A DNA stretch of 36,406 nt, from assembly GCF_009696275.1 (NCBI RefSeq), contig NZ_VUMI01000055.1:1-36406 (forward strand), in the 5' to 3' direction. This DNA is from Eisenbergiella porci (GTDB lineage: Bacteria > Bacillota > Clostridia > Lachnospirales > Lachnospiraceae). This document shows, one piece after another, positions 2,502-33,018 of this stretch; the first letter of the stretch is position 1; each line of letters begins with the position of its first letter. The translations under genes and the position numbers were made by a program. Under the pieces are notes generated by a model. It searched no databases and had not been told where the DNA came from. It saw only the letters and a program-made list of their open reading frames with translations.

Positions 2502-2503
2502 TA

Positions 2504-3958: not shown

Positions 3959-3985
3959 TTATAAAATGAGGAGAGGAGCCTTATC

Positions 3986-5304: not shown

Positions 5305-5336
5305 TTGCACAATAATCAAAAAGTGAGGTGAGATTC

Positions 5337-6224
5337 TTGCATAAATTTTTAAAATCAGTGGGGTTTAGTGAGTATACATCAACTAAGAAAATTCAGGAGC
5401 TGGTAAAGGATGTGATCCTGAATGCGGAAACCAGAAACTATACCACTCTTGATGGAAAAGAAGATACGGTCCTGGTAGAGTTTTGCAAGGATTTCGCAGA
5501 GAACATGGGAATTGCAGTTTGCGGGGAATTTGATGAAAGTGATAATTTCATTTTCTACTATTATTATCCCTACCTGCGAGGAACCGGCATCAGTTCCATG
5601 GAGGATGTGAGCGTGGAACGTCATGCGGCAGTGGAATCCTATGCAGGTGTGTGTGATGATATTAAGGTAGGAGTAACTTTGATCTTTTACCTGCAGAACA
5701 TGATCCCCTATATAAAATACAAAAATGCAGATAAGCTTCCGGTCAGAGGTACCAGCCTGACCTTGTCTGCCCTAGCAAGTCAGGGATCAATTATGATGCC
5801 TATCATAAAAAGTGAAAACCAGAAGAAAAAGATCAAGCAGTCCACAATTACAAGGAATCAGCTTATTGAGGCCGCCAGACGGGGAGATGAAGACGCTATT
5901 GAAAGCCTGACGCTGGAGGATATGGATACCTACACAACTATCTCCAAAAGAATTCAGAAGGAAGACGTATTCAGCCTTGTTGACACGTATTTTATGCCTT
6001 ATGGTGTGGAGTGCGATCAATATTCTGTATTAGGAGAAATTTCAGAATACCATACGGTAATGAATAAGCTGACAAAAGAAAAGATCTGCTTTATGACGAT
6101 TAACTGCAATGAATTAACCTTTGATGTATGTATTAATGAAAAAGATCTTTATGGCGAACCTAAAATCGGCCGAAGATTCAAAGGGGTAGTCTGGCTCCAG
6201 GGAGCAGTAAATTATCCTGAATAA
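5337..6224 (+). CDS. DUF3881-like protein
   Basis: A 295-residue soluble protein resembling the DUF3881 family, known to me mainly from Lachnospiraceae and without an assigned function. No signal peptide or membrane segment is visible. Conserved-looking parts are the N-terminal HKFLKSVGF, an acidic region with YYYYPYLRGTG, and a C-terminal half with CFMTINCNELTFDVCIN. The start chosen is TTG at 5337, because GAGGTG sits six bases upstream and the protein then begins M-HKFLK. A GTG at 5328 lies inside that ribosome binding site. It is separated from serS by the hairpin at 5271-5304. Confidence 0.75.
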   Translation: MHKFLKSVGFSEYTSTKKIQELVKDVILNAETRNYTTLDGKEDTVLVEFCKDFAENMGIAVCGEFDESDNFIFYYYYPYLRGTGISSMEDVSVERHAAVESYAGVCDDIKVGVTLIFYLQNMIPYIKYKNADKLPVRGTSLTLSALASQGSIMMPIIKSENQKKKIKQSTITRNQLIEAARRGDEDAIESLTLEDMDTYTTISKRIQKEDVFSLVDTYFMPYGVECDQYSVLGEISEYHTVMNKLTKEKICFMTINCNELTFDVCINEKDLYGEPKIGRRFKGVVWLQGAVNYPE

Positions 6225-6504: not shown

Positions 6505-6543
6505 GTTTCCTTAGTTAAATGGATATAACAGCCCCCTCCTAAG
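6505..6543 (+). pseudogene. tRNA-Arg(CCU) 5' half, remnant 1
   Basis: This is the 5' half of a tRNA-Arg. The acceptor strand GTTTCCT (6505-6511), D-arm GTTA/TAAC (6514-6517 with 6526-6529), anticodon stem GCCCC (6531-6535) and loop CTCCTAA with anticodon CCT (6538-6540) are all recognisable. After the loop only two bases of the anticodon stem still pair (GGTTG instead of GGGGC). No T-arm or acceptor partner follows. The gene is cut at the anticodon loop. Confidence 0.75.
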
Positions 6544-6585
6544 GTTGCGTTACAACGGCCACCTCAAAAAAAACTAAATAAGGGA

Positions 6586-6614
6586 TTGCAGTTCGACTTT
6601 GATCGGGCTATAAT
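6586..6614 (+). promoter_or_regulatory. Promoter of second tRNA-Arg remnant
   Basis: TTGCAG (6586-6591), 17 bases and a perfect TATAAT (6609-6614) lie just upstream of the second tRNA half. The second copy was therefore a separate transcription unit. Confidence 0.7.
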
Positions 6615-6628
6615 CATATATCAGACAC

Positions 6629-6668
6629 GTCCATATAGCTCAGCTGGATAGAGCACACGCCTCCTAAG
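6629..6668 (+). pseudogene. tRNA-Arg(CCU) 5' half, remnant 2
   Basis: This is a second, different tRNA-Arg 5' half. The acceptor strand is GTCCATA (6629-6635), the D-arm GCTC/GAGC (6638-6641 with 6651-6654), the anticodon stem CACGC (6656-6660) and the loop CTCCTAA (6661-6667, anticodon CCT at 6663-6665). The expected GCGTG and TATGGAC 3' partners are absent. As in remnant 1, similarity ends right after the loop. Confidence 0.75.
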
Positions 6669-6722
6669 AGAACGAGGAGCGGACACCTTTTGGGGAGGAC
6701 CCCACCTTAAAATTTCATATAC

Positions 6723-6799
6723 GTCTCCGTAGCTCAGCAGGATAGAGCATCCGCCTCCTAAGCGGAAGGCCGCGCGTTCGAATCGCGCCGGGGACGCCA
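6723..6799 (+). tRNA. tRNA-Arg (anticodon CCU)
   Basis: A complete cloverleaf: acceptor GTCTCCG (6723-6729) with CGGGGAC (6789-6795), D-stem GCTC/GAGC, anticodon stem TCCGC/GCGGA, loop CTCCTAA with CCT at 6757-6759, T-stem GCGCG/CGCGC around TTCGAAT, discriminator G6796 and encoded CCA (6797-6799). It reads AGG codons. A TAAAAT at 6708-6713 could be its -10 box, but no good -35 is seen. The promoters at 6467 and 6586 could also read through into it. It is the only intact copy of three and stands next to the integrase gene. Confidence 0.95.
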
Positions 6800-6807: not shown

Positions 6808-6850
6808 GCCGAAAGCCTTGATTTATCAGGGTTTTCGGCTTTCTTTTACT
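6808..6850 (+). terminator. Terminator after tRNA-Arg
   Basis: GCCGAAAGCCTTGA pairs with TCAGGGTTTTCGGC (one G-U pair, loop TTTA), followed by TTTCTTTTACTTTT. It is a good intrinsic terminator for the tRNA transcript. Confidence 0.85.
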
Positions 6851-6877: not shown

Positions 6878-7079
6878 TGCTAATAAAACCTGCTAATAAA
6901 CGGCTGGAAATTCGCTGCCGCTAATAGAAAGCGCATGGTCTGCATCAGTAGCCGGAAGAATCTTTTCTGCTAATAGAAGCCGGATTTTCCGACCCGAAAA
7001 GCCGGTTTTGAGAAGCCCTTTGCTAATAGGCGTTTTTGACCTCCCAGCGTGACTGCTAATAAAATCATCCATTATTAGC
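6878..7079 (+). repeat. Six direct TGCTAATA repeats, likely integrase arm sites
   Basis: Copies at 6878, 6891, 6919 (CGCTAATA), 6968, 7021 and 7054 share TGCTAATA followed by A or G, mostly in a TGCTAATARAA context. A reversed GCTAATA (7073-7079) contains the int stop codon. Tyrosine integrases with an N-terminal arm-binding domain use short direct repeats of this kind beside the crossover site. Confidence 0.65.
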
Positions 7080-8456
7080 CGTCTGGATAGACTGAAGAAC
7101 TTTTGTTAGCAGTTCCGGGTTGCTGGTCAGCAGCGCAGCCAGGGCATTTGCGTCCATCGCGGACGCTTTCTCTGTTGCTGCTGGCTGTATGGTTGCGCCG
7201 CCCTGCTGATAGAACTGCTGCTCCATCTCAGAAGCCAGCATTCTCCGATCCTCATCCAGAATATGCGCATAGCGTTTCGTGACCATATCCGGTGTACTCC
7301 AACCACCATCGCCCTGTACCGCCTTCAGATCACCGCCGGACAAGCGGAGCTTTACACCCGCGCTGGTATGGCGGATACTGTGAAAGACGATCTCGCTGGG
7401 ATCAATGGTGGGATCACCCATTGCTTCGAGGACTTCCTTAAAGCGTTTGTTCAGGTGTTCCGTCATGATTGGCCTGCCGTTTGCCTGACAGATGATAAGC
7501 CCGTAATCCATATACCCATCATCACCCAACTCGACCTTGAGCTTGTCCTGCATTTGCTTCAGGACCTTCAGCTTTTGAGCAACTGTCTCCGGAATGTAAA
7601 CATTTCGGACGCTGCCCTCAGTCTTGGGCTGTTTCAGGACGATCAGGGTTCTGGTTCCGGGATACAGGTTCGGAAACCGGAACATGATGTCCATTTTGGT
7701 AAGGGTATCTGCCAGCTTTTTGTCTACACGGTCAATCACCCTGTCGATATAGAGCATCCGGTTCGCGGGGTCGTATCTGTCCCACTGTGCGCCGCCGACC
7801 TCGCCGCCGCGCATACTGCAGGCAAAGGCCAGATGAATCGCACAGTGGATCAGATAATAGTCATAGATATCCGGTCTGTCCGTAAACTCCATGACCTTCT
7901 GGAGCTGCTCCGGCGTCAATGCGGCACGCTTTTTCTCTTTGTGTTCCGGGAGTGTCGCGTTCAAGAACGGGTTCTTCGCGATGTACTCCCACTTCACAGC
8001 CTGATTAAAGGCGCAGCGCAAAACCTTGTGAATATCATGGATAATCGAAGTCGTGAGATGCTCACGCTTTGGTTTTCCAGGGTTGGTCACAGGTTCTGCT
8101 TCAAAGAGCAGGAAGTGATAGTAGTCATCCACGGTCTTGGTGCGGATGCTGCGGAGCTTTTTGTCTCCAAGGTACGGGTACACATAGTTCTCCAGCAGGC
8201 CAACATTCCCGTCATAGGTAGATGCTACCCACCGCTTCTCTCCGTATTTCTGAACGAATTCATGGAGAAATTCGCTGACGGTCATATCATTCTGTTCGAT
8301 ATGGATATTCTGAGATACCTCATACTCCAACTGAGCTTTTCTGGACTTTGCTGCGTTATAGCTGAGGCCGGATTCCCATACCTGATGTTTGTTTTTGCCT
8401 TCGCCTTCGTAATACACCACGGCGTAGGCTTTTCCTCTTTTTACGATAGATGCCAT
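7065..8456 (-). CDS. int: Tyrosine recombinase, ICE integrase
   Basis: A 463-residue site-specific tyrosine recombinase that integrates and excises the element. Residues 1-50 form an AP2-like arm-binding domain, about 58-170 the SAM-like core-binding domain and 180-405 the catalytic domain. The catalytic set is visible: R216 (SMRGGE), K278 (LKQPKTEG), H359 and R362 (FHSIRH), W386 in the H/W position (GDGGW) and nucleophile Y396 (KRYAHI). A Gln-rich 50-residue tail follows. The gene starts two bases after the xis stop with GGAGGG upstream, so the two form an xis-int unit. It faces the tRNA-Arg gene, which is the usual position next to the attachment site. Confidence 0.96.
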   Translation of the reverse strand: MASIVKRGKAYAVVYYEGEGKNKHQVWESGLSYNAAKSRKAQLEYEVSQNIHIEQNDMTVSEFLHEFVQKYGEKRWVASTYDGNVGLLENYVYPYLGDKKLRSIRTKTVDDYYHFLLFEAEPVTNPGKPKREHLTTSIIHDIHKVLRCAFNQAVKWEYIAKNPFLNATLPEHKEKKRAALTPEQLQKVMEFTDRPDIYDYYLIHCAIHLAFACSMRGGEVGGAQWDRYDPANRMLYIDRVIDRVDKKLADTLTKMDIMFRFPNLYPGTRTLIVLKQPKTEGSVRNVYIPETVAQKLKVLKQMQDKLKVELGDDGYMDYGLIICQANGRPIMTEHLNKRFKEVLEAMGDPTIDPSEIVFHSIRHTSAGVKLRLSGGDLKAVQGDGGWSTPDMVTKRYAHILDEDRRMLASEMEQQFYQQGGATIQPAATEKASAMDANALAALLTSNPELLTKVLQSIQTANNG

Positions 8457-15431: not shown

Positions 15432-15434
15432 TAT

Positions 15435-15704: not shown

Positions 15705-17120
15705 TCAGCGTTGTTCTTTGCGCTGAGCCTCTTTTTCTTTCTCCGAATCTTTTTCATCATACCCAAGCAGCCGGGCAACATTGGCCTTTGCCATCTGCAA
15801 ATCGCGCATTTCCTGGCGAATGCCGGAGTATACAGGGTAGAGTTTTTTCTTCTCGGTCAACAGACCGGCATATTCGGCCTGGAGGCTTTTGATGGTGGGC
15901 ATTTTCTTGATTCCCATTTCGTCAAAAGCCTTTTTTGCTGCCTTGTGAAGCAGAATCTCCGCCTCATGTTCGGCCAGAAACTTTTTGGAGTATCCGGCTT
16001 TCCGATAGGCCACATATACCTCACGGGTCTTGGCATAGTTGATGATGTGCTTACGGAGTTCGGTGATCTCTGCCATGCGCGTCTCCACAGCCTTGATCTG
16101 ATCGGACAGCTCATGGTATCGGACGGTAACTTCATCCGTTTTCTTACAGAGCGTTCCGTAGTCCAGCAGCTTTCGCTCAGTCAGGAAATTCAGCGTTTGC
16201 GCCATCTGCTTCAGGTTGAAGCTCTGCGCCCACCGCGCATATCCGGCACCTTTACCCTCGGCCAGTTTGGCCTGGATGTCCACCAGCAGATTGACGCGCT
16301 GGGACTGGATTTTCTTTGCGTTCTTCCGGACCGGGGAAAGCTCCTTTTCTCCAACAATGATTGAGAGAATATCTCCCTCGGAGTAACCGTCCTTCAGAGA
16401 GCGGAGCCGGGTAAACTTCTTCTGGCCCGGGCCTCGAAAAGCAGGCTGCTTTCCAGGCTTATACTCATAACCGGCCTCCCGCATCAGCTTCAGGAACGCA
16501 TCAAAGTCCTTCGGCTTTTCAGCAAGAGCCGCGTCAATCGCCTGCCGGAGCTTATCCTGAAAGGACAGTTTCTTTTGGTCGCCCAGCCACTTGCCGTAAT
16601 GCGTATTGCCGGACTTCGGATTTTCAATGACAGAGAGACCGTTTTCCAGACACAGACGGTCACTGGCCCGGCGTAGAGCGAAGCTGGAGCCGAGGAAGTT
16701 CCGGTACTTGTGCTGCCCATCCATCCGGGTGGAATTGAAGATGATATGCGTATGGATATGCGCGTGGTCGATGTGCGTGGCCACAACGAATTGATGCTTG
16801 CCTTTTGTCCAGCTCATGGCTAACTCGTAGCCGATCTGCTGGGCCTGCTCCGGCGTCACTTCGCCGGGCTTGAAGGACTGCCGGATCTGATACAGCAGCA
16901 CATCCGACTGTGAAATTTCTTTTCCAGTAAAGTCCGCATAGGCCCGCTTGGTCAGCAGCATTTCATTGGCGGCGGTGGCAGGGTCGCAGCCAAAGGCTGT
17001 TACCAGCTCTCCTCCCAGGGTCTTGTTCGGATTGATGGCATAGTCAATCCGCTCATGGACTGTATAAGAAATGGATTGATTTTTGATTTTGTGCATGGGG
17101 ATCAGGCGTGTTGTTGCCAC
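15705..17120 (-). CDS. Relaxase (MobA/MobL type)
   Basis: A 471-residue relaxase that would nick the element at oriT and stay bound to the 5' end during transfer. The HUH-type metal motif is plain: HIDHAHIHTH with histidines 116, 119, 121, 123 and 125. Upstream lie the ATTRLIPMH start typical of the family and the likely catalytic Tyr region (ISYTVHERIDYAINP). The C-terminal half is helical and highly charged. The start is GTG at 17120, with GGAGG eight bases upstream. MobC is encoded about 800 bases upstream on the same strand, giving a relaxosome module. Confidence 0.92.
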   Translation of the reverse strand: MATTRLIPMHKIKNQSISYTVHERIDYAINPNKTLGGELVTAFGCDPATAANEMLLTKRAYADFTGKEISQSDVLLYQIRQSFKPGEVTPEQAQQIGYELAMSWTKGKHQFVVATHIDHAHIHTHIIFNSTRMDGQHKYRNFLGSSFALRRASDRLCLENGLSVIENPKSGNTHYGKWLGDQKKLSFQDKLRQAIDAALAEKPKDFDAFLKLMREAGYEYKPGKQPAFRGPGQKKFTRLRSLKDGYSEGDILSIIVGEKELSPVRKNAKKIQSQRVNLLVDIQAKLAEGKGAGYARWAQSFNLKQMAQTLNFLTERKLLDYGTLCKKTDEVTVRYHELSDQIKAVETRMAEITELRKHIINYAKTREVYVAYRKAGYSKKFLAEHEAEILLHKAAKKAFDEMGIKKMPTIKSLQAEYAGLLTEKKKLYPVYSGIRQEMRDLQMAKANVARLLGYDEKDSEKEKEAQRKEQR

Positions 17121-17153
17121 AGTAAAAACCTCCTTCCCTGATGGCATGAGAAA

Positions 17154-17943: not shown

Positions 17944-18282
17944 TCACGAAACCTCATTCAGCCGGGCCAATATCTCATTCACCCCGGCCCAGATTGCTTC
18001 CTGTTTTTGGAGAATATCCTCCAAATCCGTATCGTAAACATTCCCGGTCTGATGCACCCGGCGGGCCACCTGATTGATGTTGTTGCTGGTACGCCGCAGA
18101 AGGGAAAGCAATTCACGCAGCTCCGGCAAATCCAGCTTGACAATATAGCCGTCCACCGCCATCTTGCGGAGATAAACACCCAGGTTGTTGGTGCCGAGCT
18201 GTTCCATCTTCTGACGAATCAGCTCCCGCTCGTGTTCCGTCACCATGAAGTGGAGCTGAACCGTCCGTTTCCGGTGCGCCAT
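17944..18282 (-). CDS. mobC: MobC-type relaxosome protein
   Basis: A 112-residue DNA-binding accessory protein that helps the relaxase open oriT. The N-terminal ribbon-helix-helix (RTVQLHFMVTEHERELIRQKM, LGTNNLGVYLRKMAVDG) and the C-terminal MobC signature (ELLSLLRRTSNNINQVARRVHQTG) are both present. The ATG at 18282 is chosen because GGAGG lies seven bases upstream; a GTG three bases earlier is possible. It overlaps the stop of the DUF3848/DUF3849 gene. The relaxase is encoded downstream. Confidence 0.92.
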   Translation of the reverse strand: MAHRKRTVQLHFMVTEHERELIRQKMEQLGTNNLGVYLRKMAVDGYIVKLDLPELRELLSLLRRTSNNINQVARRVHQTGNVYDTDLEDILQKQEAIWAGVNEILARLNEVS

Positions 18283-19379
18283 CACCGGGCCTCCCGTTCC
18301 TGCTTATGCTTTTTAGAAGCCGCAGGGGCTGACTTAGCGGAGGTTTTCTGGAGGTCCTTCCGCACAGAACGGCGGAGCTTTCTGAGCGGCTGGCTCCGGT
18401 CCTCGTCTTTGGTAATCAGGACAAAATACCCCTTGCGGTCATTCAGGCCGGAGAAGGTGGTGGAGCGAAACGGCAGCGTTGCCATGAGCCGGTCCGTATC
18501 CTTGGTGGAAGCCCGTGCCAGAAAGTCCGGTGAAACCTGCGCCATGAAGTGTGTGCCATTGGGGCTGTTGGGTTCCTTTGGCGCTCGAAGCACCGTAATC
18601 AGCCGTTGGGCCTCCCTCTGGATTTCTTCATCGGTCAGCGGCGTCCGCAGAAGCTGTTCCCGGCGCGCCTGATCTACAAAGAGGTCCGTCAGACCAGGAT
18701 GCGATTTGTCAACCACAAATTCCGTGTTGCGGTCATGGCCCCACGAATCAGTATCCTCAAAAACCGGAATCGTCATGGCCCACCTCTTATTGCCTTGGGA
18801 GATTCGCCCATCCCAGTCCTTATGCCGAACAGTATTGGCCAGAACATACATGGTGCGCTCCATGCCAAAGGCTTCGATCACCTTCAGCGCAGCCTCCTTG
18901 CCCAACCGGTTATCGCTGTAATGGGCGGAAATCGCTGCTTCGATGGCCTCCTTGCAAGCCACATTTGCTTTGTGAGAGGCCCGGTATTGTTCCAGTTCAT
19001 CATGCTCACGGGCATAGCTCGCGGGATAACGATAAACCGGTGTCTCCCGCAGGATGCGCCGCTGTTTTTTCTCCGCCTCCAGTACATCGTCTGCCCATTC
19101 CTCCATCGCATAGAAAATCTGATCCATGTGATCAGTTTCCCTATGGTCAAATTCCTTGAACACATCTGCCAGCGGAGAGGGCAATTTCAAAAGCGCAGCA
19201 GCCTGAGCGTCCGTCAGGTCATGGTATTCCAGCGACAGCAGAATGTCCTCCCGGATGGTGTATTCATAGGTGTGATTCAATATTTCTTCCGGGGGCTGCG
19301 TGAGCAGCCACTTCCGGTAGGCTTCCTGCTCGGCAAACATCTTCTCATAGAGCGCCGTATTCAGTTCCTGATTGTTCAT
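18282..19379 (-). CDS. DUF3848/DUF3849 fusion protein
   Basis: A 365-residue backbone protein. Residues about 3-100 resemble DUF3848 (LYEKMFAEQEAYRKWLL, PPEEILNHTYEYTIREDILLS). About 115-240 resemble DUF3849 (VYRYPASYAREHDELEQYRAS, FGMERTMYVLANTVRHKDWDGR). A basic C-terminal tail follows (about 325-365). The functions of both domains are unknown; they are common in clostridial conjugative elements. GGAGGT precedes the ATG, which lies one base after the stop of the giant helicase gene. It overlaps mobC. Confidence 0.78.
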   Translation of the reverse strand: MNNQELNTALYEKMFAEQEAYRKWLLTQPPEEILNHTYEYTIREDILLSLEYHDLTDAQAAALLKLPSPLADVFKEFDHRETDHMDQIFYAMEEWADDVLEAEKKQRRILRETPVYRYPASYAREHDELEQYRASHKANVACKEAIEAAISAHYSDNRLGKEAALKVIEAFGMERTMYVLANTVRHKDWDGRISQGNKRWAMTIPVFEDTDSWGHDRNTEFVVDKSHPGLTDLFVDQARREQLLRTPLTDEEIQREAQRLITVLRAPKEPNSPNGTHFMAQVSPDFLARASTKDTDRLMATLPFRSTTFSGLNDRKGYFVLITKDEDRSQPLRKLRRSVRKDLQKTSAKSAPAASKKHKQEREAR

Positions 19380-19380
19380 C

Positions 19381-22300
19381 TTATCTTACCTCCATTTCTT
19401 TTTTGTGTGGCCGGTCTGGTGTTCCGTGAACCGGCGGCGTTTTCAGCCTGTCCAGAACCGAGGGTCGTTCACTTTTGGCAATGGCAGACGGTTCCGGCTG
19501 TGAACGTCCTCTGCCGTCTATGTTCAGTGCCATATCCAAAGCCGCCAGCCTTGCGGATTTTTCCTGAAGCTCCTGTTCGTGGGGAAACGGCTTGCCAACT
19601 TCGGCTCTGGCCGCCTCCTGTTGCTGGTACAGGTTGTCCATCTGAGCCTGCACACTGGCCATACGCCCAGGCATCTGTGCCAGTGCGTTGTCGATACGGA
19701 TCAGATTTCCGCGCGGGTCAGATCCCAGGGTCGTTTTATGGCTCATTTCTCCGCGCAGCGTCAGCTCATACTGCTTCTCGAAAGCGTTGAAGCTGACGAA
19801 CATGGTAAAGCCCCGATAGCTGCCAATCTGCACCGGCTCGGAGCTTTTTACTTCTTTACAGGCATCCAAGAGCGCGGCACCGGCATTTTCTTTGTCAACC
19901 AGCGTATCACCCCGGATTTCCATTCCGGCAAATCCGTCCTCTGGGTGCGGATGAGCAGCGAGAGTTTGCATATCTGCCTGAAGCCCGGCGATGAAGCCCT
20001 TGTCCTTTTCGATCTGTTCCGGGAAGTATTTCAGCAGATTGTCCTCCAGACGGAACTGCTTGCTTTGGTGGTCAGCCTTCATCAGCTTCAGACGGGATAC
20101 ATCCACTTCCAAATCCATACGCTCTTTGATGCGGGGATCACCGGCACACAGGGCCTTGATTTCTGCAAAGGACAGCGCCGTTTCATCCACATCGTCACAG
20201 GAGCGCACCGGGGATTTGCTGGTCATGATCTGTGAAATGAACTTCTGTTTGTTCTCCACGGTCTGCCAGAGATAGGCATCAAATGTACCCTCTGTCACAT
20301 AACGGAACACATGGACACGCTCATTCTGGTTGCCCTGGCGCTCAATACGGCCTTTACGCTGTTCCAGGTCGCCGGGCCGCCAAGGACAATCCAGGTCATG
20401 GAGTGCCACAAGGCGATCCTGCACGTTGGTTCCGGCTCCCATTTTGGATGTGCTGCCGATCAGAACACGCACTTGGCCGGTGCGTACTTTGCTGAACAGC
20501 TCCTTTTTCCGCACCTCGGTGTTGGCCTCATGGATAAAAGCAATCTGCTCTGGTGGTACACCCCCGGCAATCAGCTTTTGGCGGATGTCCTCATAGACGG
20601 AAAATTCCGGTTCCGGCTCCGGCATGGGGATGGCAGTTTCTAAAGCGTGAATCTCCGGGCTATCCAGATTTCCGCTGACGGCTTTAGCAACCTTTTTGGA
20701 TGGTGCCGGTTTCGGTGTGGAAATGTCGCAGAATACCAGCTGGGTCAGCTTCTCAGCCTGCCCGTCCCGCCAAATCTGCATAATGTTTGCAACACACTGG
20801 TTGACTTTCGTCCCTGTTTCATCGGGCAGCAGCGGGTTTATGATTCGCTGGTCAAGGCCCAGTTTTCGGCCATCCGAGGTGATTTTGAGCATATTATCGG
20901 TGGAAGGGTCTACTGATCCTCCATGTACCAGGGCAGCGCGTTCAGACAGGGCCTGCACCATTTCCTGCTGATGCTCTGTGGGTTTTGCCACAACCGTGTG
21001 ATACTCCACCTCCGGTGTCGGCAGATGCAGCTGATCGGAGGTTTTAATATCCGCGACTTCTTTGAACAAGGTCATTAACTCCGGCAGGTTAAAGAACTTG
21101 GAGAAGCGGGTTCTTGCCCGGTAGCCCGTGCCTTCCGGGGCCAGCTCCAGGGCGGTGACGGTTTCTCCAAACCGGGAAGCCCAGCAGTCAAAGTGTGTCA
21201 TGCCCAGCTCTTGCAGCCGGTCATACTGTAAATACCGCTGCATGGTATATAGCTCGGTCATAGAATTGCTAACCGGGGTGCCGGTAGCAAAGACCACGCC
21301 ACGGCTCCCGGTGATCTCATCCATGTAGCGGCATTTGGCGAACATATCGGAGGATTTCTGGGCATCCGTGGTGGATAGGCCAGCCACATTTCTCATCTTT
21401 GTGTAGAGGAACAAATTCTTGTAATTGTGCGCCTCATCTACAAACAGCCGGTCAACGCCCAGCTGTTCAAAAGTAATCACATCATCCTTTCTGTGATCGG
21501 CTTGCAGCTTTTCAAGCCGTGCTTCCAGCCCGCGCTTGGTACGCTCCAACTGCTTGACGGTAAACCGTTCGCCGCCGCTGGATTCCACCTCGGAAATGCC
21601 CTCGGTGATTTCTGCAATCTGCTCCTGCAACAGCCGCTCCTGACGCTCCTTGCTGATAGGAATACGCTCAAACTGGGAGTGGCCAATGATGATTGCATCA
21701 TAGTCGCCGGTGGCGATCCTGGCGCAGAACTTCTTGCGCCGGTGGGCCTCAAAGTCCTTTTTAGTGGTGACGAGAATATTTGCAGATGGGTACAGCCGCA
21801 GGAACTCTGAGGCCCATTGCTCGGTCAGATGGTTCGGCACCACAAAGATGGATTTCTGGCACAGGCCCAGCCGCTTGGATTCCATGGCAGCGGCAACCAT
21901 TTCAAAGGTTTTGCCCGCGCCTACTTCATGGGCCAGCAGCGTATTCCCGCCGTACAGCACATGGGCGATAGCACTTTTCTGATGCTCCCGCAGGGTGATT
22001 TCCGGGTTCATACCGGAGAAAACGATATGGCTTCCGTCATACTCGCGGGGGCGGGTGCTGTTCATTTCCTCGTTGTACTGGCGTACCAGGGCCTGCCGCC
22101 GTTCCGGGTCTCTCCAAATCCAGTCCTTGAAGGCATCCCGAATGGCCTGCTGTTTCTGTGCGGCCAGGGTGGTTTCCTTGGCATTCAGCACCCGGCGCTC
22201 CCTGCCGTCTGCGTCCTCCACAGTGTCATAAATGCGAACATCCCGGAGATTCAGAGAATCCTCCAGGATACGGTAAGCGTTGGCGCGGTCTGTGCCATAG

Positions 22301-25300
22301 GTGGTATAGGCCGCGATGTTGTTGTAGGGTATCTGCGTCTTGCCGGTGATCTGCCACTCGGCGGTGTAAGCGGAATAGTTCACATCAATGGAGCCGCGTA
22401 GATACCGGGGCGTGTCAAAGGTTTCGTACATGAACTGACGGATATATTCCTTATCAATCCAGGTAGCACCCAGGCGAACTTCGATCTCCGATGCGTCCAG
22501 GTCCTTGGGCTGAGCGGCTTTCAGGGCTTCCACATTGACGGCAAAAGCCGGATCGCGTTCAGCTGCCCGCTGTGCGGCCCGGAGCTTCTGTCGGACATTG
22601 CCGGACAGATATTCGTCTGCGGTCTGCCAGCCGGAAAGCGGATCGCTGCCATAGGCCGGGTCTTTGAAGATTACGCCGGTCAGCTCGGCCGCAATTTCCT
22701 CGGTGGGTTTACCGGTCAGCTGGGACATATACTCCATATCCACCCTGGCTTTTTCCGCAATGGAAACGGCAAGGGCTTCGCTGGCGGTGTCCACCGTGGT
22801 CACAGCCTTGTGGGGCTTGATAGTACGTTTGGTGAACATATCCGCCTTGCGCTCCAGCTTCCCGTCCTCGTCCAGCACTTCCAGCGCACACAGGAGATAG
22901 TAAGAAGAATCGTCCGAAAAGGCCAGCCGGTTTCCTCGGTCATTGATAAGCCCATATTTGGCGGAAAACGCATCATAAAGCCGTTTCAATTCCTCCTGCT
23001 TTTCCCGAATGGACGAATCCGGCGTGTACTCGTCCATCTGAAGGTCAATAAGCTGATGCACACAGTCGCGGAGAGCAACCATTCCTTTGACGCGGGCCTC
23101 GGCGGTGGCGTTCAGGTCCGGTTTTACCATGCGGCTGTTTTCCCGGAAGTACACCTCCCCATCCACCACAGCATAGGAGTAGTTTTTCACGTTGGGGTCT
23201 GCTGGGATGGAGGTGTCGATTTCTTCACCCTCGCCCAGCTCCGGCAGCTCAGCTTCCTGATAGGTGCCGCGAATGTATTTCACAGCGTCATGGAGCTGAT
23301 CGGCCAGCTCCAGCCCCTCAATCGGTGCAACCGTGAAGTCCTGCCTGCCATATTGGGTGCTTTCGGAGGTCTGTCTGCCTAAGATCATCTCCGGGTGGTC
23401 CACAAAGTAGCTGTTGATCGCAAAGCCATCCTCGTTTTGCCCCAAATGCACCCAGTCCGGCTCAATGTCGATGGGCCGGTCACGCTTTTGCAGAAAGATA
23501 ATATCGGAGACCACATCCGTACCGGCATTGGCCCTGAACGCATTGTTGGGCAGTCGGATGGCTCCCAGCAGCTCGGCACGCTGTGCAATGTACCGGCGTA
23601 CCTCCGGGGACTGCTTATCCATGGTGTAACGGGAGGTCACGAAAGCGATCACGCCGCCCGGTCGCACCTGATCCAGCGCCTTGGCAAAGAAGTAGTCATG
23701 GATGGAAAACCCCAGCTTGTCATAGGCCCGGTCAGATACTTTGTACTGTCCAAACGGCACGTTGCCGATGGCAAGATCGTAGAAATCTCGCCGGTCCGTG
23801 GTTTCAAAACCGGCTACCGTAATATCCGCTTTGGGGTAGAGCTGCTTTGCGATGCGTCCGCTGACGGAATCCAGCTCTACACCGTACAGCCGGGAGCCGG
23901 TCATTTCCTCCGGCAGCATACCGAAGAAGTTGCCGACACCGCAGGCTGGTTCCAGAATATTGCCAGCGGTAAAACCCATGTTGCCGACAGCTTCATAAAT
24001 GGCGCGGATGACCGTGGGGCTGGTGTAGTGGGCGTTCAGGGTAGACGCTCTGGCTGAGGCGTATTCCTCCGGGGTCAGAAGGGTAAGAAGCTCCTGGTAC
24101 TCATTGGCCCAACCCGGCTTGCTTTCATCAAAGGCATCGGCAAGGCCGCCCCAGCCCACATACCGGGACAAGACCTCCTGCTCGGCAGGGGTAGCGCTGC
24201 GTCCTTGTGCTTCAATTTCTTGTAAGGTGCGGATAGCGTCCACATTCATACGGAACTTCGCTTTTGAGCCGCCCTCACCCAGATGATCGTCTGTGATACG
24301 GAAGTTTTCTGTGGGAACCTGGCTTGGTGGGTCATGCTCAGGTTCCTCTACATGAAGCCGTTCAATGACCACATCATAGGGCAGGCCGTTCTTGTATCCC
24401 GGATAAACCGTAACAGTTTCAGAGGAAAATTCCATTCTTTCATCTTTTGCTGGTTCTGGTGCAAACAATCTGGCGTTGCGCTCGTCCTGACGCAGCCGTT
24501 CCTCGAAGATTTCCCGATTGAAGGTTTCATGGCTCCAGGAATAGGGGCCGGTGTCAATGCGGACATCCATATCCCCGATGTAACCGATGGTACCGGAGAT
24601 CTCCCGGTCTGCGAAAGGCAGCTTGACGGTATCGCCCACCTTATAAGTTGGAACACCCTCTAAATGGGCGGGTGCCGGGAGCTTTGTTTCAGGAGAAAGG
24701 CCGTCAAGTCCCTGCTGATACAGGGCGCGGAGCAGCCGCGCAGTCTCATCCCAGGAGATGCCCAGCTTGGTATCGTACTTGTCCTGTATTTCTACCTCCA
24801 TGCCGGTGGTGGAAGTGGAAAAGTCAGCCGTGTCGCCGGTGACAAGTTCCATTGTCTCGGTCCGGCCCGCAAAGGTTTCGGAAAGTCGCTGAGAAATACG
24901 CTTATTGCCCTCACCGGAGCGCAGCCAGCCGGAAATATAGGCTTTATCCCGGTCTGTTAACAACCCAGAGGTAAGCACCTCCCGCAGATCATCGTTTGCT
25001 TTGGACGAATCCGCAGAGAGAAATTCCGTGATGGAGCCGTTTCGGAGGTCTTTCTGCAAGAGCTGCTCAAACCGTTCCTTGCTTTCTGCCCGGAAAATGG
25101 GGATAGAGAGCGCCGGGTCACGGAGCTGCACATCAAACAGACCAATGCTGGTAATCTCAAATGCGGTATCATCCAGATAGACAGTATCGCCTACATGGTA
25201 GGGCGGGACTTGCTGGCTGCGACCTGCTGTGTCGGGAAGCGCATCCTGAATCTGCTGCCATTCCTCATCGGATACGGTTATATCAACCTCATGGGTGGTT

Positions 25301-27030
25301 TCGCCGTCCCCGATGGTAATGGTATCGCCTTGACGGGTAATGGGCTGGCCGGACAGATCGGGAGCCTGGGCCTGTTCCTCTTGAGCAACGCGCTCCACAT
25401 CTGCGGTCACTTGCTGGATGAACGGGTCCTGATCCAACTTTTCGGGGTCAACTACCTGACCGCCCACGATCCCGCGCTGTTCCAGGGCTTCCCGGATAGC
25501 AATAGGGTCAATATCATCAAAGCGGTTCTGTTCTTCTTCTGTAAAAAACCGATCCTCCTTGATGAGCTGGGCAATCCGGCGCTGTACCTTTGCCCACGGC
25601 AAATCCGTGGCAGCAGCCGGAACCGGAAAGGCCGGAAGATCATCGCCATACTCTTGCTTCAGCCATGCCGCCGTATCCTTATCGCGGGCATGATTTTTCA
25701 TATAACGGACAACGGCCTGCTTGCTTCTGATGTCGCCATTCCATTCCTGGAGTGCTGCATCAATAGCGGCCTGGGTATCCACGGGCCGCGCCAGTTCCGG
25801 GGCCGGTTTTGCAGGCTCCGGTTGGGGCATAGAAAAAGCGGAGGGCTGTCGGCTCTCCGCTTGCTGGATATTCTGGATTTGCCCCTGCTCAGACAGGAAC
25901 AGGTTTAATGTCAGTTGTTGATAAGCTCCGTCAGGATAATCTCCTCCGCCTGGGCCTTGCAGTTGTTCATCAGGCCCACCCAGCGCATCGGGTGGCTGTA
26001 TTTCAGGCTCTCCGTTGCGCCCGCCGCTTTCGCCAGCTCTGGGATCATCTGCTCCAGACGGCTGTTCGCTGCCTCGTCTATCTCCTGCAGGTGCGCTGTC
26101 AGCTTCCCGGTCAGAAGAAGGTTGTTGTAAAGCACCGTCCGATGTTCCTTCAGATAGGTTTTCCGCATCCTGCCATACTTGCCCAGAGGCTTCTGCGGAG
26201 GCTGTTCCTCCAAGATAAGTGTGGGAATCTGATAATCCCCGTTCTGGATATAATGCAGTTCGTTCATTTGCCTGGCTCCTTTCATATTCGTAGTGTTTGA
26301 TGGTTGCGCCAATCTGCCGCAGCACTTCCTGGCTGGACTGGCTGACCGCTGTACCCAAAGCTGTGACCACGGCGGGGGTATTGAAATCAAAAATACTCAG
26401 GAAATCCTCATGCTCGAAATAGGCTTCCGGCTCCAGTCCGCAGCGGGACATCAGCGCGTAAGTGATGCTGACGGTGGCGGCACTTCGGAAGGCTACTCCG
26501 ATGTTGAAATCATCATATTCCTCCAGGAAGGAACCGTCAACGATGTGGAGAATGTCACGCTGGTTCTCTGACCAATATTCATCAGCAAGCTGGGCAGCCA
26601 CCTTTTCCAGTTGGTCGGCAAGGCCGTGTTCTGCTGGAATATCATAGGCTTTTTCCAGCGTCTCCGTCACCGGGGCTTCATGTTCCGGGCGATACTGCCA
26701 GAGATAAAGTTGACGGGCGTTTTCACGCCCGCCGGTATCGGAAACATCAAACACATAGCGCAGTTTCGGTCGGTCGCCGCTGTCATCCAGGAGAGCAATT
26801 CCCTTGGAACCACGCCGCACATAACGGCCCATTGTATTGTTCCAGAGGTCATATTCTGCACAGGCGGTAGCATCGGGCCGCTGGGCAAAAATCATCATCT
26901 GCTCCGGGAACGGATACTTATAAAGCCGGGCTGCGGTGGTAAGAAAAGCCGTCCATCGCTGGAAGCTGCCGGTCAGCCCGGCGGCTACCTGTTCGGCCAT
27001 CTGTGCATAGCTTTGCAGTTTACTCGGCAT
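19381..27030 (-). CDS. Giant DarB-like methylase/SNF2 helicase
   Basis: A 2549-residue protein of the DarB-like class, thought to protect transferred DNA from restriction. In order: an N-terminal ArdC-like part (about 20-80), a low-complexity polar region (about 255-375), two related KVGDTV-type beta domains near 610 and 797, an N6-adenine methylase core (EPACGVGN near 1024, NVPFG near 1088 in place of NPPY), and a superfamily 2 helicase with Walker A HEVGAGKT near 1700, DEAH near 1864 and GRIERQGN near 2228. The ATG at 27030 has AGGAGG six bases upstream and overlaps the TTRAP-type gene. The low-complexity region coincides with a tnpV gene in another frame. It is intact despite its size. Confidence 0.9.
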   Translation of the reverse strand: MPSKLQSYAQMAEQVAAGLTGSFQRWTAFLTTAARLYKYPFPEQMMIFAQRPDATACAEYDLWNNTMGRYVRRGSKGIALLDDSGDRPKLRYVFDVSDTGGRENARQLYLWQYRPEHEAPVTETLEKAYDIPAEHGLADQLEKVAAQLADEYWSENQRDILHIVDGSFLEEYDDFNIGVAFRSAATVSITYALMSRCGLEPEAYFEHEDFLSIFDFNTPAVVTALGTAVSQSSQEVLRQIGATIKHYEYERSQANERTALYPERGLSDSHTYLGGTASAEASGQVWQDAENLSEGTSDGALQQPSSDREADSAPAGDRRGSEQPSGADDPRAGESGGRNGEPEIQPPDALGGPDEQLQGPGGGDYPDGAYQQLTLNLFLSEQGQIQNIQQAESRQPSAFSMPQPEPAKPAPELARPVDTQAAIDAALQEWNGDIRSKQAVVRYMKNHARDKDTAAWLKQEYGDDLPAFPVPAAATDLPWAKVQRRIAQLIKEDRFFTEEEQNRFDDIDPIAIREALEQRGIVGGQVVDPEKLDQDPFIQQVTADVERVAQEEQAQAPDLSGQPITRQGDTITIGDGETTHEVDITVSDEEWQQIQDALPDTAGRSQQVPPYHVGDTVYLDDTAFEITSIGLFDVQLRDPALSIPIFRAESKERFEQLLQKDLRNGSITEFLSADSSKANDDLREVLTSGLLTDRDKAYISGWLRSGEGNKRISQRLSETFAGRTETMELVTGDTADFSTSTTGMEVEIQDKYDTKLGISWDETARLLRALYQQGLDGLSPETKLPAPAHLEGVPTYKVGDTVKLPFADREISGTIGYIGDMDVRIDTGPYSWSHETFNREIFEERLRQDERNARLFAPEPAKDERMEFSSETVTVYPGYKNGLPYDVVIERLHVEEPEHDPPSQVPTENFRITDDHLGEGGSKAKFRMNVDAIRTLQEIEAQGRSATPAEQEVLSRYVGWGGLADAFDESKPGWANEYQELLTLLTPEEYASARASTLNAHYTSPTVIRAIYEAVGNMGFTAGNILEPACGVGNFFGMLPEEMTGSRLYGVELDSVSGRIAKQLYPKADITVAGFETTDRRDFYDLAIGNVPFGQYKVSDRAYDKLGFSIHDYFFAKALDQVRPGGVIAFVTSRYTMDKQSPEVRRYIAQRAELLGAIRLPNNAFRANAGTDVVSDIIFLQKRDRPIDIEPDWVHLGQNEDGFAINSYFVDHPEMILGRQTSESTQYGRQDFTVAPIEGLELADQLHDAVKYIRGTYQEAELPELGEGEEIDTSIPADPNVKNYSYAVVDGEVYFRENSRMVKPDLNATAEARVKGMVALRDCVHQLIDLQMDEYTPDSSIREKQEELKRLYDAFSAKYGLINDRGNRLAFSDDSSYYLLCALEVLDEDGKLERKADMFTKRTIKPHKAVTTVDTASEALAVSIAEKARVDMEYMSQLTGKPTEEIAAELTGVIFKDPAYGSDPLSGWQTADEYLSGNVRQKLRAAQRAAERDPAFAVNVEALKAAQPKDLDASEIEVRLGATWIDKEYIRQFMYETFDTPRYLRGSIDVNYSAYTAEWQITGKTQIPYNNIAAYTTYGTDRANAYRILEDSLNLRDVRIYDTVEDADGRERRVLNAKETTLAAQKQQAIRDAFKDWIWRDPERRQALVRQYNEEMNSTRPREYDGSHIVFSGMNPEITLREHQKSAIAHVLYGGNTLLAHEVGAGKTFEMVAAAMESKRLGLCQKSIFVVPNHLTEQWASEFLRLYPSANILVTTKKDFEAHRRKKFCARIATGDYDAIIIGHSQFERIPISKERQERLLQEQIAEITEGISEVESSGGERFTVKQLERTKRGLEARLEKLQADHRKDDVITFEQLGVDRLFVDEAHNYKNLFLYTKMRNVAGLSTTDAQKSSDMFAKCRYMDEITGSRGVVFATGTPVSNSMTELYTMQRYLQYDRLQELGMTHFDCWASRFGETVTALELAPEGTGYRARTRFSKFFNLPELMTLFKEVADIKTSDQLHLPTPEVEYHTVVAKPTEHQQEMVQALSERAALVHGGSVDPSTDNMLKITSDGRKLGLDQRIINPLLPDETGTKVNQCVANIMQIWRDGQAEKLTQLVFCDISTPKPAPSKKVAKAVSGNLDSPEIHALETAIPMPEPEPEFSVYEDIRQKLIAGGVPPEQIAFIHEANTEVRKKELFSKVRTGQVRVLIGSTSKMGAGTNVQDRLVALHDLDCPWRPGDLEQRKGRIERQGNQNERVHVFRYVTEGTFDAYLWQTVENKQKFISQIMTSKSPVRSCDDVDETALSFAEIKALCAGDPRIKERMDLEVDVSRLKLMKADHQSKQFRLEDNLLKYFPEQIEKDKGFIAGLQADMQTLAAHPHPEDGFAGMEIRGDTLVDKENAGAALLDACKEVKSSEPVQIGSYRGFTMFVSFNAFEKQYELTLRGEMSHKTTLGSDPRGNLIRIDNALAQMPGRMASVQAQMDNLYQQQEAARAEVGKPFPHEQELQEKSARLAALDMALNIDGRGRSQPEPSAIAKSERPSVLDRLKTPPVHGTPDRPHKKEMEVR
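25911..26267 (-). CDS. tnpV: TnpV-like protein encoded inside the giant helicase gene
   Basis: A 118-residue protein resembling transposon-encoded TnpV. It starts MNELHYIQNGDYQIPTL, continues with LGKYGRMRKTYLKEHR and a long helical part (LTGKLTAHLQEIDEAANSRL), and ends PMRWVGLMNNCKAQAEEI. AAAGGAG stands eight bases before the ATG at 26267. The whole gene lies on the same strand as the giant helicase gene, in another frame, over its low-complexity region. The composition (aromatics, ordered helices) looks like real protein, whereas the host frame here is rich in Gly, Asp, Ser and Pro. The role of TnpV is not established. Confidence 0.75.
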   Translation of the reverse strand: MNELHYIQNGDYQIPTLILEEQPPQKPLGKYGRMRKTYLKEHRTVLYNNLLLTGKLTAHLQEIDEAANSRLEQMIPELAKAAGATESLKYSHPMRWVGLMNNCKAQAEEIILTELINN

Positions 27031-27256
27031 CCGCGTCCTCCTTGTCATCGAAGTCCGGGTACAGCTCCAGTGCCGCAAAGTCCGCATCCGTCATGGCAGA
27101 GAGCTTTTCCAGCGTGGAATCGGTGATAGCTGTCAGCTCCATTTCGTCCGGTTCCAGGTATTCCCGCATCTCCTTTAAGGCGTCCATCAGGCCCTGGCGC
27201 GTACCGGTGTTGTAAATGCACATCAGATTGATCTCGTCAAAAGTAAAGTTTCCCAT
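27020..27256 (-). CDS. TTRAP-type transposon-transfer assisting protein
   Basis: A 78-residue acidic protein matching the TTRAP family (putative transposon-transfer assisting protein): FDEINLMCIYNTGTRQGL, MREYLEPDEMEL, DFAALELYPDFDD. The molecular role is unknown. It starts two bases after the stop of the ArdC-like gene and its end overlaps the giant helicase gene by 11 bases, so the three form one antirestriction-like unit. Confidence 0.82.
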   Translation of the reverse strand: MGNFTFDEINLMCIYNTGTRQGLMDALKEMREYLEPDEMELTAITDSTLEKLSAMTDADFAALELYPDFDDKEDADAE

Positions 27257-27257: not shown

Positions 27258-29453
27258 TCAAATCTCCCTTTCCGCGCTCTTTTTGGGCGCTGTCTTTTTG
27301 TGTTCCTGTTTCGGCTGGCTGTGAAGCTGCTCCATCACGGACTTTTTCTTTTCCCGGTCCTCCCGGTGGACAGCCTCGGCCAAATCCATCAGTGAAATAG
27401 GCTGCCCGGAACGGGCCTGCTGTTCCAGCTCGGCCACGGTCTGCCGGGGACCGTTATTGATGATGCCGTCAATCATGCCGTAATCGTCCTCCACAGACAT
27501 CTCTGCATTTTTTAACGGATTATCTTGGGGCAGAAAGCCAGGAAGCTCCTGAAATCCAACGCTGTCGCAGTAGTGACAAGATACCACGCCGTTTTGCTTG
27601 ACGGCAACGATGTCGCTGACGCTAAGAGAGGCGCTGTGATAGTCTGCCGGATGATGGAGATTGAATGTCTCATAAAGCATTTCCAGTTTTTGTTCCGTAG
27701 TTCCTTTTTCCGTAAGCTGTCCGGTATAGATCAGATCGTAATTACCGCGCTCAATGGCCAATCCGTGAGACTGCATCCAGTCCACATTCATAAACCGCAC
27801 GTTGTTCGGGTCCTCACGGCTTACCTGATAAATAGCAAAACAGTCGCCTGTGTGGGCCAGGAAAGCGGCTTCCCGTTCTTCCTGATGCTGCTGACGCTCC
27901 ATGATTTTTTCATGGAACATGGAGCTTTGCTCCCATTCCTCGCGGGAAATAGCAAAGACGGTGCCTGGAGCCTGGGTTTCAAATTCCTCCTGGTCAAACA
28001 GCATTTCCGCGCTACCTCCGCTCACTATGGCATAGACAGTCAAATCCATATCGTACAGCTCCAAGGCCCTTTCTTTAGAGAGGGGAAGCATATCACCGTC
28101 CATGTAGCCGCAGGCTTCCAGATCGGCCGCTTGCAGGACTTCATCCGGCATGGGATATTCGTCCAGCGCCTGCTCCGGTGCATCCGGCAACATGGAGGTA
28201 GGCGGAACCTGGCTTTCCGGGAAGGGTGTTTTCTGCTCAATGGAAGCTTCAACTGTCTGGACGGAAACGGAAACATCCTGCACTTGATCTTCCTCGCACG
28301 GAGCCACCTCACTTTGCATCTGCTGGCTGGCAGGCTGCGGCTCGGCAGCCTCCGCCGTCAGGTCAATGCCACGTTCCTTGCAAATCTCTGCAAAATGGCG
28401 GTCAATGTCCGTAATCAGACCATTGGCCGTCTTATTGATGGTTTCCAGACTGGCCCGGAGTTCCGACAGTTCCTTGCCCTTGCTCCAGGAGGCGATATAG
28501 CCGAAGCTGTTCTCGCCGGTCTGGATGCCATAATACTGGCAGACGGCGTAGGAGACGCTTTCGGCCTCCACTTCCTCGGTATTCCGGCTTTTGATTGCGT
28601 CCTGTACCACAGAGGTATCTTCCTCAACTTCAAGCCGCCATTCAAACTGGTTCTCATCCACATACCGCCAACCGGCGTCAGCCGCAAAAGCCTCCGCAGC
28701 AGCTCCCGTTTCAAAGCCCTGGCTGTAATCGTGCCGGGTGCTGCCCTCACTCACCATAACCACTTTCCATGATGGAACAGCCTCAGTTTTCTCCGGGTTG
28801 TGGAGCTTCGCGTGGGTGATCTCATGAATTGCAGCTGAGATTGTCTGAACCTCGCTCATGCCTGTGCGGATGGCAATGCGCTGGTTTTCCGTATCAAAAT
28901 AGCCGTCCATATTGGCGGCCATCGGCTCCATTTCTATCGGAACCGGGGAAGAACGGCGCAGGGCCTCCATGAAAATCTCATAGTGCTGCACATTTCCGGT
29001 CAGGTCGCTGGCAAGCTGGGGCAACGGCCTGCCCTCCGTCTGTGATACATCAAATACGGACACCACCTTGAACATGGGTATCTGGACTTCTTTTTCCTCC
29101 ACAATGGCATTGCCGTCCTTGTCCAGAAGCGGGGCCTTGGTGTCGGGATCGCGCTTGATTTCCTCCACCTTTTTCTTATAGGGCGTGGGCGCAATAATCT
29201 TGATACCCTTTTCACCGCGTTTCACATGGCGGCCAAACTGATCGCGCCACTTGTTGAAACCGGCCACTTGAGTGGCGTCCGGTTTTTGCATATGAATGAG
29301 CATTACGTTGTTGACGGAATAATGATGGAATCGGGACATGACGCGGAGGTACTGCATATATTTGTCGCTCTGAAACAGGTCTTTGATGCCCTGCTCAATG
29401 CCCTCGGTGATCTCCCGTAATCGTTCTTTATTGGTAACTTTCTGCTCTGGCAT
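27258..29453 (-). CDS. ArdC-like/metallopeptidase/YodL/DUF4316 protein
   Basis: A 731-residue multidomain backbone protein. The N-terminal ArdC-like part (about 1-170: YSVNNVMLIHMQKPDATQVAG, RGEKGIKIIAPTPYKKK) binds single-stranded DNA in characterised relatives. A zincin-like HEITHAKLH follows near residue 215. After a variable linker (about 375-455) come YodL-like repeats (FAIYQVSREDPNNVRFMNVDW) and a DUF4316 C-terminus with basic tail. By analogy with ArdC it may shield incoming DNA from restriction. GGAAGGAG precedes the ATG. The cargo gene at 29541 separates it from the topoisomerase group. Confidence 0.85.
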   Translation of the reverse strand: MPEQKVTNKERLREITEGIEQGIKDLFQSDKYMQYLRVMSRFHHYSVNNVMLIHMQKPDATQVAGFNKWRDQFGRHVKRGEKGIKIIAPTPYKKKVEEIKRDPDTKAPLLDKDGNAIVEEKEVQIPMFKVVSVFDVSQTEGRPLPQLASDLTGNVQHYEIFMEALRRSSPVPIEMEPMAANMDGYFDTENQRIAIRTGMSEVQTISAAIHEITHAKLHNPEKTEAVPSWKVVMVSEGSTRHDYSQGFETGAAAEAFAADAGWRYVDENQFEWRLEVEEDTSVVQDAIKSRNTEEVEAESVSYAVCQYYGIQTGENSFGYIASWSKGKELSELRASLETINKTANGLITDIDRHFAEICKERGIDLTAEAAEPQPASQQMQSEVAPCEEDQVQDVSVSVQTVEASIEQKTPFPESQVPPTSMLPDAPEQALDEYPMPDEVLQAADLEACGYMDGDMLPLSKERALELYDMDLTVYAIVSGGSAEMLFDQEEFETQAPGTVFAISREEWEQSSMFHEKIMERQQHQEEREAAFLAHTGDCFAIYQVSREDPNNVRFMNVDWMQSHGLAIERGNYDLIYTGQLTEKGTTEQKLEMLYETFNLHHPADYHSASLSVSDIVAVKQNGVVSCHYCDSVGFQELPGFLPQDNPLKNAEMSVEDDYGMIDGIINNGPRQTVAELEQQARSGQPISLMDLAEAVHREDREKKKSVMEQLHSQPKQEHKKTAPKKSAEREI

Positions 29454-32824: not shown

Positions 32825-33018
32825 TTCGTGGTTCCTCCTTCCTTGGGTTTGGGCTTGATGATAAGGTCACGATGACACAGGCCGAAACAAGCCCGTCCAT
32901 AGCTGGAGCAGCCATAGCAGCGGTGGTTTTTCGGCAGCGCCGAAGGGCAGGTTTCCCGCCCGCCCATCGGCTTCTGCTGCATCATGCGTTCAAAGGGACT
33001 GTTGGTGAAGTAGGTCAT
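32821..33018 (-). CDS. Cys-rich small ICE protein
   Basis: A 65-residue protein with ETCPSALPKNHRCYGCSSYGRACFGLCHRD. Five Cys and two His in a short span could bind a metal. The family is not recognised. It is linked by ATGA overlaps to the DUF4366 gene upstream and to topB downstream, so it is a genuine part of the backbone operon. No signal peptide is seen. Confidence 0.65.
   Translation of the reverse strand: MTYFTNSPFERMMQQKPMGGRETCPSALPKNHRCYGCSSYGRACFGLCHRDLIIKPKPKEGGTTK

Follow-up and report, generated by a model that had tools for sequence, protein, structure and literature searches.

The analyzed window comprised 36,406 nucleotides, the whole of contig C101 of the 6.1-Mb draft genome of Eisenbergiella porci (G000; estimated contamination of the assembly, 4.92%). 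Its left part was chromosomal, with genes for a seryl-tRNA synthetase and a DUF3881 protein (5328..6224, + strand), the latter being the chromosomal left neighbour of the site described here and the anchor by which the same site was located in other genomes. To its right, three tRNA-Arg(CCU) 5′ halves lay in tandem on the + strand, each containing the 9-mer CCTCCTAAG, whose only exact matches in the window were at 6535, 6660, and 6754 (expected matches, 0.28; three matches were reached in 0 of 100 shuffles). Remnant 1 (R1, 6505..6542; acceptor strand, GTTTCCT) and remnant 2 (R2, 6629..6667; GTCCATA) were proper 5′ halves, each with acceptor strand, D arm, anticodon stem, and loop, and both broke directly after the anticodon loop CTCCTAA. 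Past the loop, two of the five anticodon-stem pairs formed in R1 (GCCCC/GGTTG) and in R2 (CACGC/GAGAA), and no T arm with an acceptor was found downstream of either loop. The third copy, T (6723..6799; GTCTCCG), was complete, with five of five anticodon-stem pairs and seven of seven acceptor pairs; it was the sole tRNA called by ARAGORN in the window (tRNA-Arg(CCT), 6723-6799) and scored 66.5 bits against the Rfam tRNA model. With the pairing broken in R1 and R2 and T called alone, the two tRNAs that had been entered were left unreconstructed upon integration. The first-pass annotation had described three 5′ halves with an identical core, of which only the third continued into a matching 3′ half, and this description was exact.

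R1 was assigned to the tRNA-Arg(CCU) native to the chromosome, as its 5′ half, and marks the left junction of an older element (element A); R2 was assigned as the 5′ half of the tRNA-Arg(CCU) brought by element A and the left junction of the present element (element B), which carries T. The left arm of element A, from the crossover site to its carried tRNA, measured 86 nt (6543..6628, + strand) and resembled the arms at loci L179 and L182 (arm cluster 7); the 55-nt left arm of the present element (6668..6722, + strand), of the GAGAAC type, fell into arm cluster 6 (the window, L170, L171, and L172). An intrinsic-terminator-like hairpin (6808..6839, + strand) lay directly 3′ of T. A consensus promoter scan of the + strand reported no promoter directly upstream of T or R2; a TATAAT motif, read by eye and absent from the output of that scan, was located 14 nt upstream of the tRNA carried by element A.

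Beyond T, the genes of the present element were encoded on the − strand. A tyrosine integrase of 463 aa (7065..8456; Phage_integrase PF00589, 1.4e-15; phrog_1 integrase, 1.8e-53) was accompanied by a MobA/VirD2-like relaxase (15705..17147), a DUF3848/DUF3849 protein (18282..19379), a 2568-aa protein with SNF2/helicase domains (19381..27087), a protein with ArdC N-terminal and YodL-like domains (27258..29453), DNA topoisomerase III (30722..32824), a CD1107-like mobile element protein (33015..33761), and a CD1108-family mobile element protein with an NlpC/P60 domain (34012..35805). Judged from this gene content, which joins an integrase to a relaxase and conjugation-associated genes, the DNA from T to the contig end is an integrative and conjugative element (ICE); its relaxase, CD1107/CD1108, topoisomerase III, and ArdC genes set it apart from temperate phages. 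The integrase family itself is nevertheless represented in phages; related integrases in phage records (296 matches) and plasmid records (43 matches) were all below 60% identity. The contig closed with the end of a group II intron (36293-36377, − strand) that seemed to break up an ICE ORF; such an intron would account for the assembly break at this position.

The present ICE thus ran off its contig, and its right end was assigned in a draft assembly by matching tRNA halves rather than along continuous sequence. For R2, an orphan 3′ half containing GCGTG and ending in TATGGAC had been predicted, and this half (R2′, GCGTG...TATGGAC) was present at G000:C11:3207, pairing with R2 at 5/5 anticodon-stem and 7/7 acceptor positions; a genome search for the R2 3′ half matched this single place (C11:3209), reading CTCCTAAGCGTGGGGTCGGAGGTTCAAATCCTCTTATGGACGCCA. 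The corresponding prediction for R1, GGGGC with an AGGAAAC-like end, was borne out by GGGGC...AGGGAAC (R1′) at G000:C136:11626-11665, which likewise paired with R1 at 5/5 and 7/7 positions and was the only match to the R1 3′ half (C136:11628). A search for any 3′ half following TCCTA returned R1′, R2′, T, and two matches that were not tRNA-like, and a stricter search of the draft genome returned exactly three, namely T, R2′, and R1′. The 3′ halves recovered from the draft genome included no orphan copy of T's own; the first-pass annotation had named a right-end repeat of the intact tRNA's 3′ end as a finding that would speak against its reading.

Rejoining the halves of R1 and R2 within each of three genomes restored the 5/5 anticodon stem and the 7/7 acceptor in all six cases, and all six were called tRNA-Arg(CCT) by ARAGORN, in contrast to the R1-R2 cross-pairs, of which 0 of 18 were called tRNA-Arg (tRNA-Pyl, 6; nothing, 12). 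The R2 halves of different genomes resembled each other, and swapped pairs were still called tRNA-Arg, but a genome's own R2 with the R2′ of the others formed only 3/5 anticodon-stem and 5/7 acceptor pairs. With a strict 3′-half pattern applied to mostly draft genomes, a perfect reciprocal 3′ half was found in the same genome for only 24 of the 44 remnants tested, compared with 198 perfect fits in 2,419 comparisons with the 3′ halves of other genomes. The 20 remnants lacking a reciprocal half may reflect decay, draft gaps, the strictness of the pattern, or lost right ends. Of 12 control genomes with a single tRNA, 10 had exactly one 3′ half and two had none, the acceptors of the latter starting with GC, a case outside the search pattern.

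The part common to element and target was CTCCTAAG, 8 bp consisting of the 7-nt anticodon loop plus G39, which forms the left junction of the present ICE at 6661..6668 (+ strand) and constitutes a short attP/attB core inside the host tRNA gene. The 9-mer core proposed earlier is one base longer; its first C is a stem base and was absent from the shared part at the element right ends examined, with the exception of a 10.4-kb element that has a C from its own arm. In two insertions of element A, identity ended on the last base of CTCCTAAG, and the 3′ halves differed beyond it. Of the nine GCTAATA sites in the window, seven were concentrated between T and the end of the integrase gene (6879..7079) and are plausibly candidate arm-type integrase sites; GCTAAT also occurred at 3043-3054 on C11, close to the right junction.

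The nearest named relatives by DUF3881 were Lachnospiraceae bacterium CE91-St56 (90% identity) and Eisenbergiella tayi DSM 26961 (88%). Both carried the order R1-R2-T-R2′-R1′, in a complete single-contig assembly (CE91-St56; core-to-core distances, 10,413 bp inner and 115,610 bp outer) and on a 2-Mb scaffold (E. tayi; 106,786 bp inner and 185,631 bp outer), in agreement with the nested successive integrations in the anticodon loop that had been proposed from the window. Their R1 was that of the window and their R2 and T differed from the window's, indicating that the same host gene has been taken over more than once. In both genomes an integrase of the window family followed R2′, as expected if R2 is the outer element's own carried tRNA, and the outer elements encoded relatives of the conjugation-type proteins of the window ICE; in the window genome, the integrase of the outer element sits at its right end instead (C136:9465-10838). 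Beyond R1′, five + strand ORFs were common to CE91-St56 and E. tayi (80-95% identity), and relatives of these flank proteins were found in L082 alone of 24 single-tRNA loci (44-50% identity). The R1′ flank of the window genome resembled that of CE91-St56 over about the first 45 nt and weakly past that. Two empty sites, in the relatives L093 and L100 (the latter Lachnospiraceae A4), contained a whole 72-nt R1 tRNA identical, letter for letter, to the window's rejoined R1 halves, as relatives without the element should. Truncated halves, which at an empty site would have contradicted the proposal, were absent from all 55 loci that had one intact tRNA only.

To characterize the DNA that accompanies the intact copy, 69 units, each a left arm with the tRNA that follows it, were cut from 51 stacked loci (49 distinct, given the duplicate pairs L026/L162 and L083/L159). 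The left arms were 43-130 nt long and formed 24 clusters at 75% identity. Carried 5′ halves were 96.5% identical within arm clusters (113 pairs) and 87.0% identical between clusters, whereas disrupted 5′ halves were 81.7% identical within clusters (the same number of pairs, 113) and 81.8% between; across the 113 within-cluster pairs, the identity of the carried half was higher than that of the disrupted half in 101, equal in 7, and lower in 5. Arm cluster 0, for example, comprised eight loci with eight different disrupted halves and two carried halves, and arm cluster 4 comprised five loci with five disrupted halves and one carried half. An arm and its carried tRNA were therefore conserved over loci whose disrupted genes differ. 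Whole elements behaved alike: the 10.4-kb element (integrase, helix-turn-helix regulator, TraX, and AAA ATPase genes), its whole tRNA included, was 99.53% identical over 10,458 bp between CE91-St56 and another genus (G184), while its right neighbours were GCGAA...CAGGGAC in one genome and GCGGA...CAGGAAC in the other, and its left neighbours a tRNA half and a non-tRNA arm, respectively. Of six inspected phage and plasmid records with related integrases, the human fecal scaffold MT836186, an unverified, unannotated record labelled Bacteriophage sp., supplied a second insertion of element A, to whose right end it was 99.986% identical over 7,169 bp. The arm clusters and the 10.4-kb element demonstrate, on related elements, that the tRNA travels with its element. 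Since related elements carry tRNAs and no other origin for T was apparent, T is attributed to the present ICE. That T belongs to the ICE and offers a new target, implied but unstated in the first-pass annotation, is our main addition to it. Another of the six inspected records, OY725843, examined over its whole length, contained one remnant and an intact tRNA, and no reciprocal 3′ half was found in it. Some arms retained apparent relics of a tRNA 3′ half, with TTCRW situated 8-13 nt past the loop in 22 of the 69 units, a count in which related arms recur (500 mononucleotide shuffles: mean, 2.1; maximum, 8); these relics suggest that elements restoring the 3′ half may have preceded the whole-tRNA carriers.

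DUF3881 gave a less biased route to 68 named loci, of which 16 had at least two halves in tandem, 41 had a single intact tRNA, and 11 had neither. As L158-L189 were chosen by their tandem pattern, the 51 stacked and 55 single loci do not represent prevalence. The largest stacks had three remnants ahead of the intact copy (L161 and L182). Exactly one called intact tRNA, in last place, was present in 46 of the 51 stacked loci, and no contrary case was encountered: four of the remaining five stop within 122 nt of a sequence end, and the fifth (L158) has a tRNA-like 3′ half overlooked by the test. In 24 of the 35 stacks with enough flanking sequence, the strand opposite the intact tRNA encoded an integrase of the window family no more than 2 kb away; in the other 11, an integrase of this family was absent within that distance. 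At family level the strict tandem pattern matched 27 of 397 genomes, where the reversed control had 0 matches; at phylum level it matched 3 of 398, all of the same class as the window (the window genome counted at both levels).

Taken together, the sequence comparisons establish the anatomy of the array, the nesting order, and the travel of a tRNA with its element, and make it highly probable that the array arose by nested integrations in which each element split a tRNA-Arg(CCU) and brought a whole one. In the proposed mechanism, integrative elements of a large group attach at the tRNA-Arg(CCU) gene beside DUF3881, and the tyrosine integrase, presumably the one encoded next to the intact tRNA, would exchange strands inside the anticodon loop within the roughly 8 bp common to element and target. 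The target tRNA is split and not rebuilt, its 5′ half staying at the left and its 3′ half being displaced to the right end, and the complete tRNA-Arg(CCU) just inside the element's left end would, if expressed, take over its function while presenting an intact loop as a possible site for the next element. Element A would accordingly have entered the host's own tRNA (R1), and the present ICE would then have entered element A's tRNA (R2), leaving the ICE's T as the complete copy today. Since a match in the loop alone is needed, one element could enter hosts with dissimilar tRNA arms and acceptors. T was the only complete tRNA with the loop CTCCTAA found in the draft genome; it is likely to be the site for a further element, with its intact CCTCCTAAG (6754..6762, + strand) as the putative renewed target. 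We consider it likely, with less assurance than for the nesting itself, that the attachment site is self-renewing, in that a carried tRNA replaces the broken one, offers a fresh loop, and is passed from element to element as a gene.

An ICE entering the 3′ part of T and rebuilding it, with R1 and R2 as unrelated old pseudogenes, would correspond to canonical tRNA integration. An integrase next to an intact tRNA is the usual picture of such integration, and many islands described in the available part of the Islander report use anticodon-centred sites with restoration (PMC4383910). This course of events would predict an orphan T 3′ half at the right end, but the only 3′ halves found were T's own, R2′, and R1′; C11 joins the element end to R2′ and not to a T fragment, and carried tRNAs move together with related elements, all of which leave canonical integration very improbable. 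The likeness to tDNA islands is nonetheless close, with a tyrosine integrase at a tRNA gene, commonly anticodon-centred sites, and a displaced fragment marking the far end (PMC4383910). The difference lies in restoration: in Islander islands, a tRNA fragment of the element restores the target, whereas here a whole gene is carried, the target stays broken, and no element fragment restores the entered tRNA. Local tandem duplication of a tRNA with decay of two copies, involving no mobile elements, could account for three similar 5′ halves within 300 bp; it is refuted by the two assemblies spanning the site, where matching 3′ halves are displaced by 10-186 kb and nested in their order, and neither the break at the same base every time nor the differing acceptors would be expected, so that we give this explanation practically no credence.

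A different question is whether each remnant records one integration. The number of remnants may not always equal that of integrations, with recombination between 5′ halves or tandem insertion at right ends also shaping arrays, a possibility that we hold with considerable doubt. In G184 (C1:133148-143562, L268), the 10.4-kb element adjoins a non-tRNA arm, having been inserted in tandem rather than nested, and the contig has two intact tRNA-Arg(CCU) genes. In G082, a GTTTCTG 5′ half stands directly ahead of the arm of the 10.4-kb element, whose right end there adjoins the 3′ half of another tRNA; this array (L270-L272) looks collapsed via recombination between near-identical 5′ halves. Stacks can thus probably collapse, as in G082, or grow in tandem, as in G184, and remnants are not a strict event count. 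For the window, CE91-St56, and E. tayi, on the other hand, a pair of 5′ halves with a reciprocal pair of 3′ halves corresponds to exactly two events.

If nested integration with tRNA replacement and a self-renewing site is correct, the cell's only loop-type tRNA-Arg(CCU) gene is mobile DNA, precise excision of any layer would restore the previous tRNA, and the need to match only the near-universal loop, whatever the tRNA arms of the host, would widen the host range. T as the sole tRNA-Arg(CCU) was a reading weakened by a second ARAGORN call of tRNA-Arg(CCT) at G000:C110:12217-12291 (L215), with the loop CTCCTTA and an Rfam score of 55.1 bits, lower than that of T; similar sequences were present in 6 of 20 relatives. 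A tRNA-Arg(TCT) gene (anticodon UCU) was also present in the window genome. Given these two genes, T may be dispensable rather than essential, and with tRNA-Arg(TCT) present, any selective need for the carried tRNA may be partial.

Among published systems, the nearest is tRNA-dependent lysogeny, which follows the same principle in temperate phages (Guerrero-Bustamante and Hatfull 2024, PMC10865867), chiefly of Actinobacteria, with one Lactobacillus prophage mentioned in the part of the report available; it involves tRNA-Lys, -Ile2, and -Leu, the tRNA requirement was shown by experiment, and the tRNA of phage Fionnbharth overlaps gene 37 on the opposite strand. The present case differs in its hosts, Clostridia, in its tRNA, tRNA-Arg(CCU), in the presence of conjugation genes on at least three of the elements, and in the placement of the carried tRNA at the left junction, where it is a possible next site and gives rise to nested stacks; neither ICEs nor nesting is described in that part of the report (PMC10865867). 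Substitution of a host tRNA gene by an element's foreign tRNA gene is likewise reported for Sinorhizobium meliloti (PMC11476347), there for prophages and with no nested stacks in the portion available. The Pasteurellaceae elements ICEMh1 and ICEPmu1 resemble the window element as ICEs in a tRNA anticodon loop, with a short repeat of 11-13 bp and mention of a third, disrupted tRNA-Leu copy, but differ, in the accessible text, in that attL keeps the T-loop part and a complete tRNA is described for one end (PMC6861422). A literature search, with most subscription journals outside its coverage, retrieved no report of ICEs carrying a whole replacement tRNA or of nested tRNA stacks. What is new here is the occurrence in conjugative elements and in Clostridia, and the position of the carried tRNA as a possible next attachment site. 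The phage phenomenon of 2024 would thereby extend to conjugative elements of gut Clostridia (69 carried tRNAs and 24 kinds of left arm), which would explain how one element uses hosts with different tRNA sequences. The stacks would form a readable stratigraphy of integrations in which a translation gene has been repeatedly replaced by mobile DNA, and annotation tools built around a restored tRNA with a matching fragment can overlook these elements or put their ends in the wrong place.

Circular forms were sought in IMG/VR: the integrase query, which as a single protein detects close relatives only, gave four stretches matching the peptide pattern and 0 relatives, and four arm-plus-core patterns gave none. 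Element A was at one stage labelled an ICE, a label that was dropped. Nine further ORFs of C136, which holds its right end, comprised regulators, excisionase-like and MazF-like proteins, a transposase, a second integrase, and an rRNA adenine dimethylase, with neither conjugation nor phage structural genes among them. The transposase, the rRNA adenine dimethylase, and a second tyrosine integrase lay at 485-4176 of that contig (L221), near the element's right end; the dimethylase family is that of Erm-type resistance enzymes. Within the present ICE, a LiaG-like DUF4097 protein (13731-14645, − strand) and a TetR-type regulator (14733-15689, − strand) are possible cargo. Beside the right junction of the ICE, C11 (393-2925, L152) encoded two proteins that are likely anti-phage cargo, one of the Fic family (PADLOC SoFic, 1.2e-43) and the other a reverse transcriptase of the Drt8 type (3e-161).
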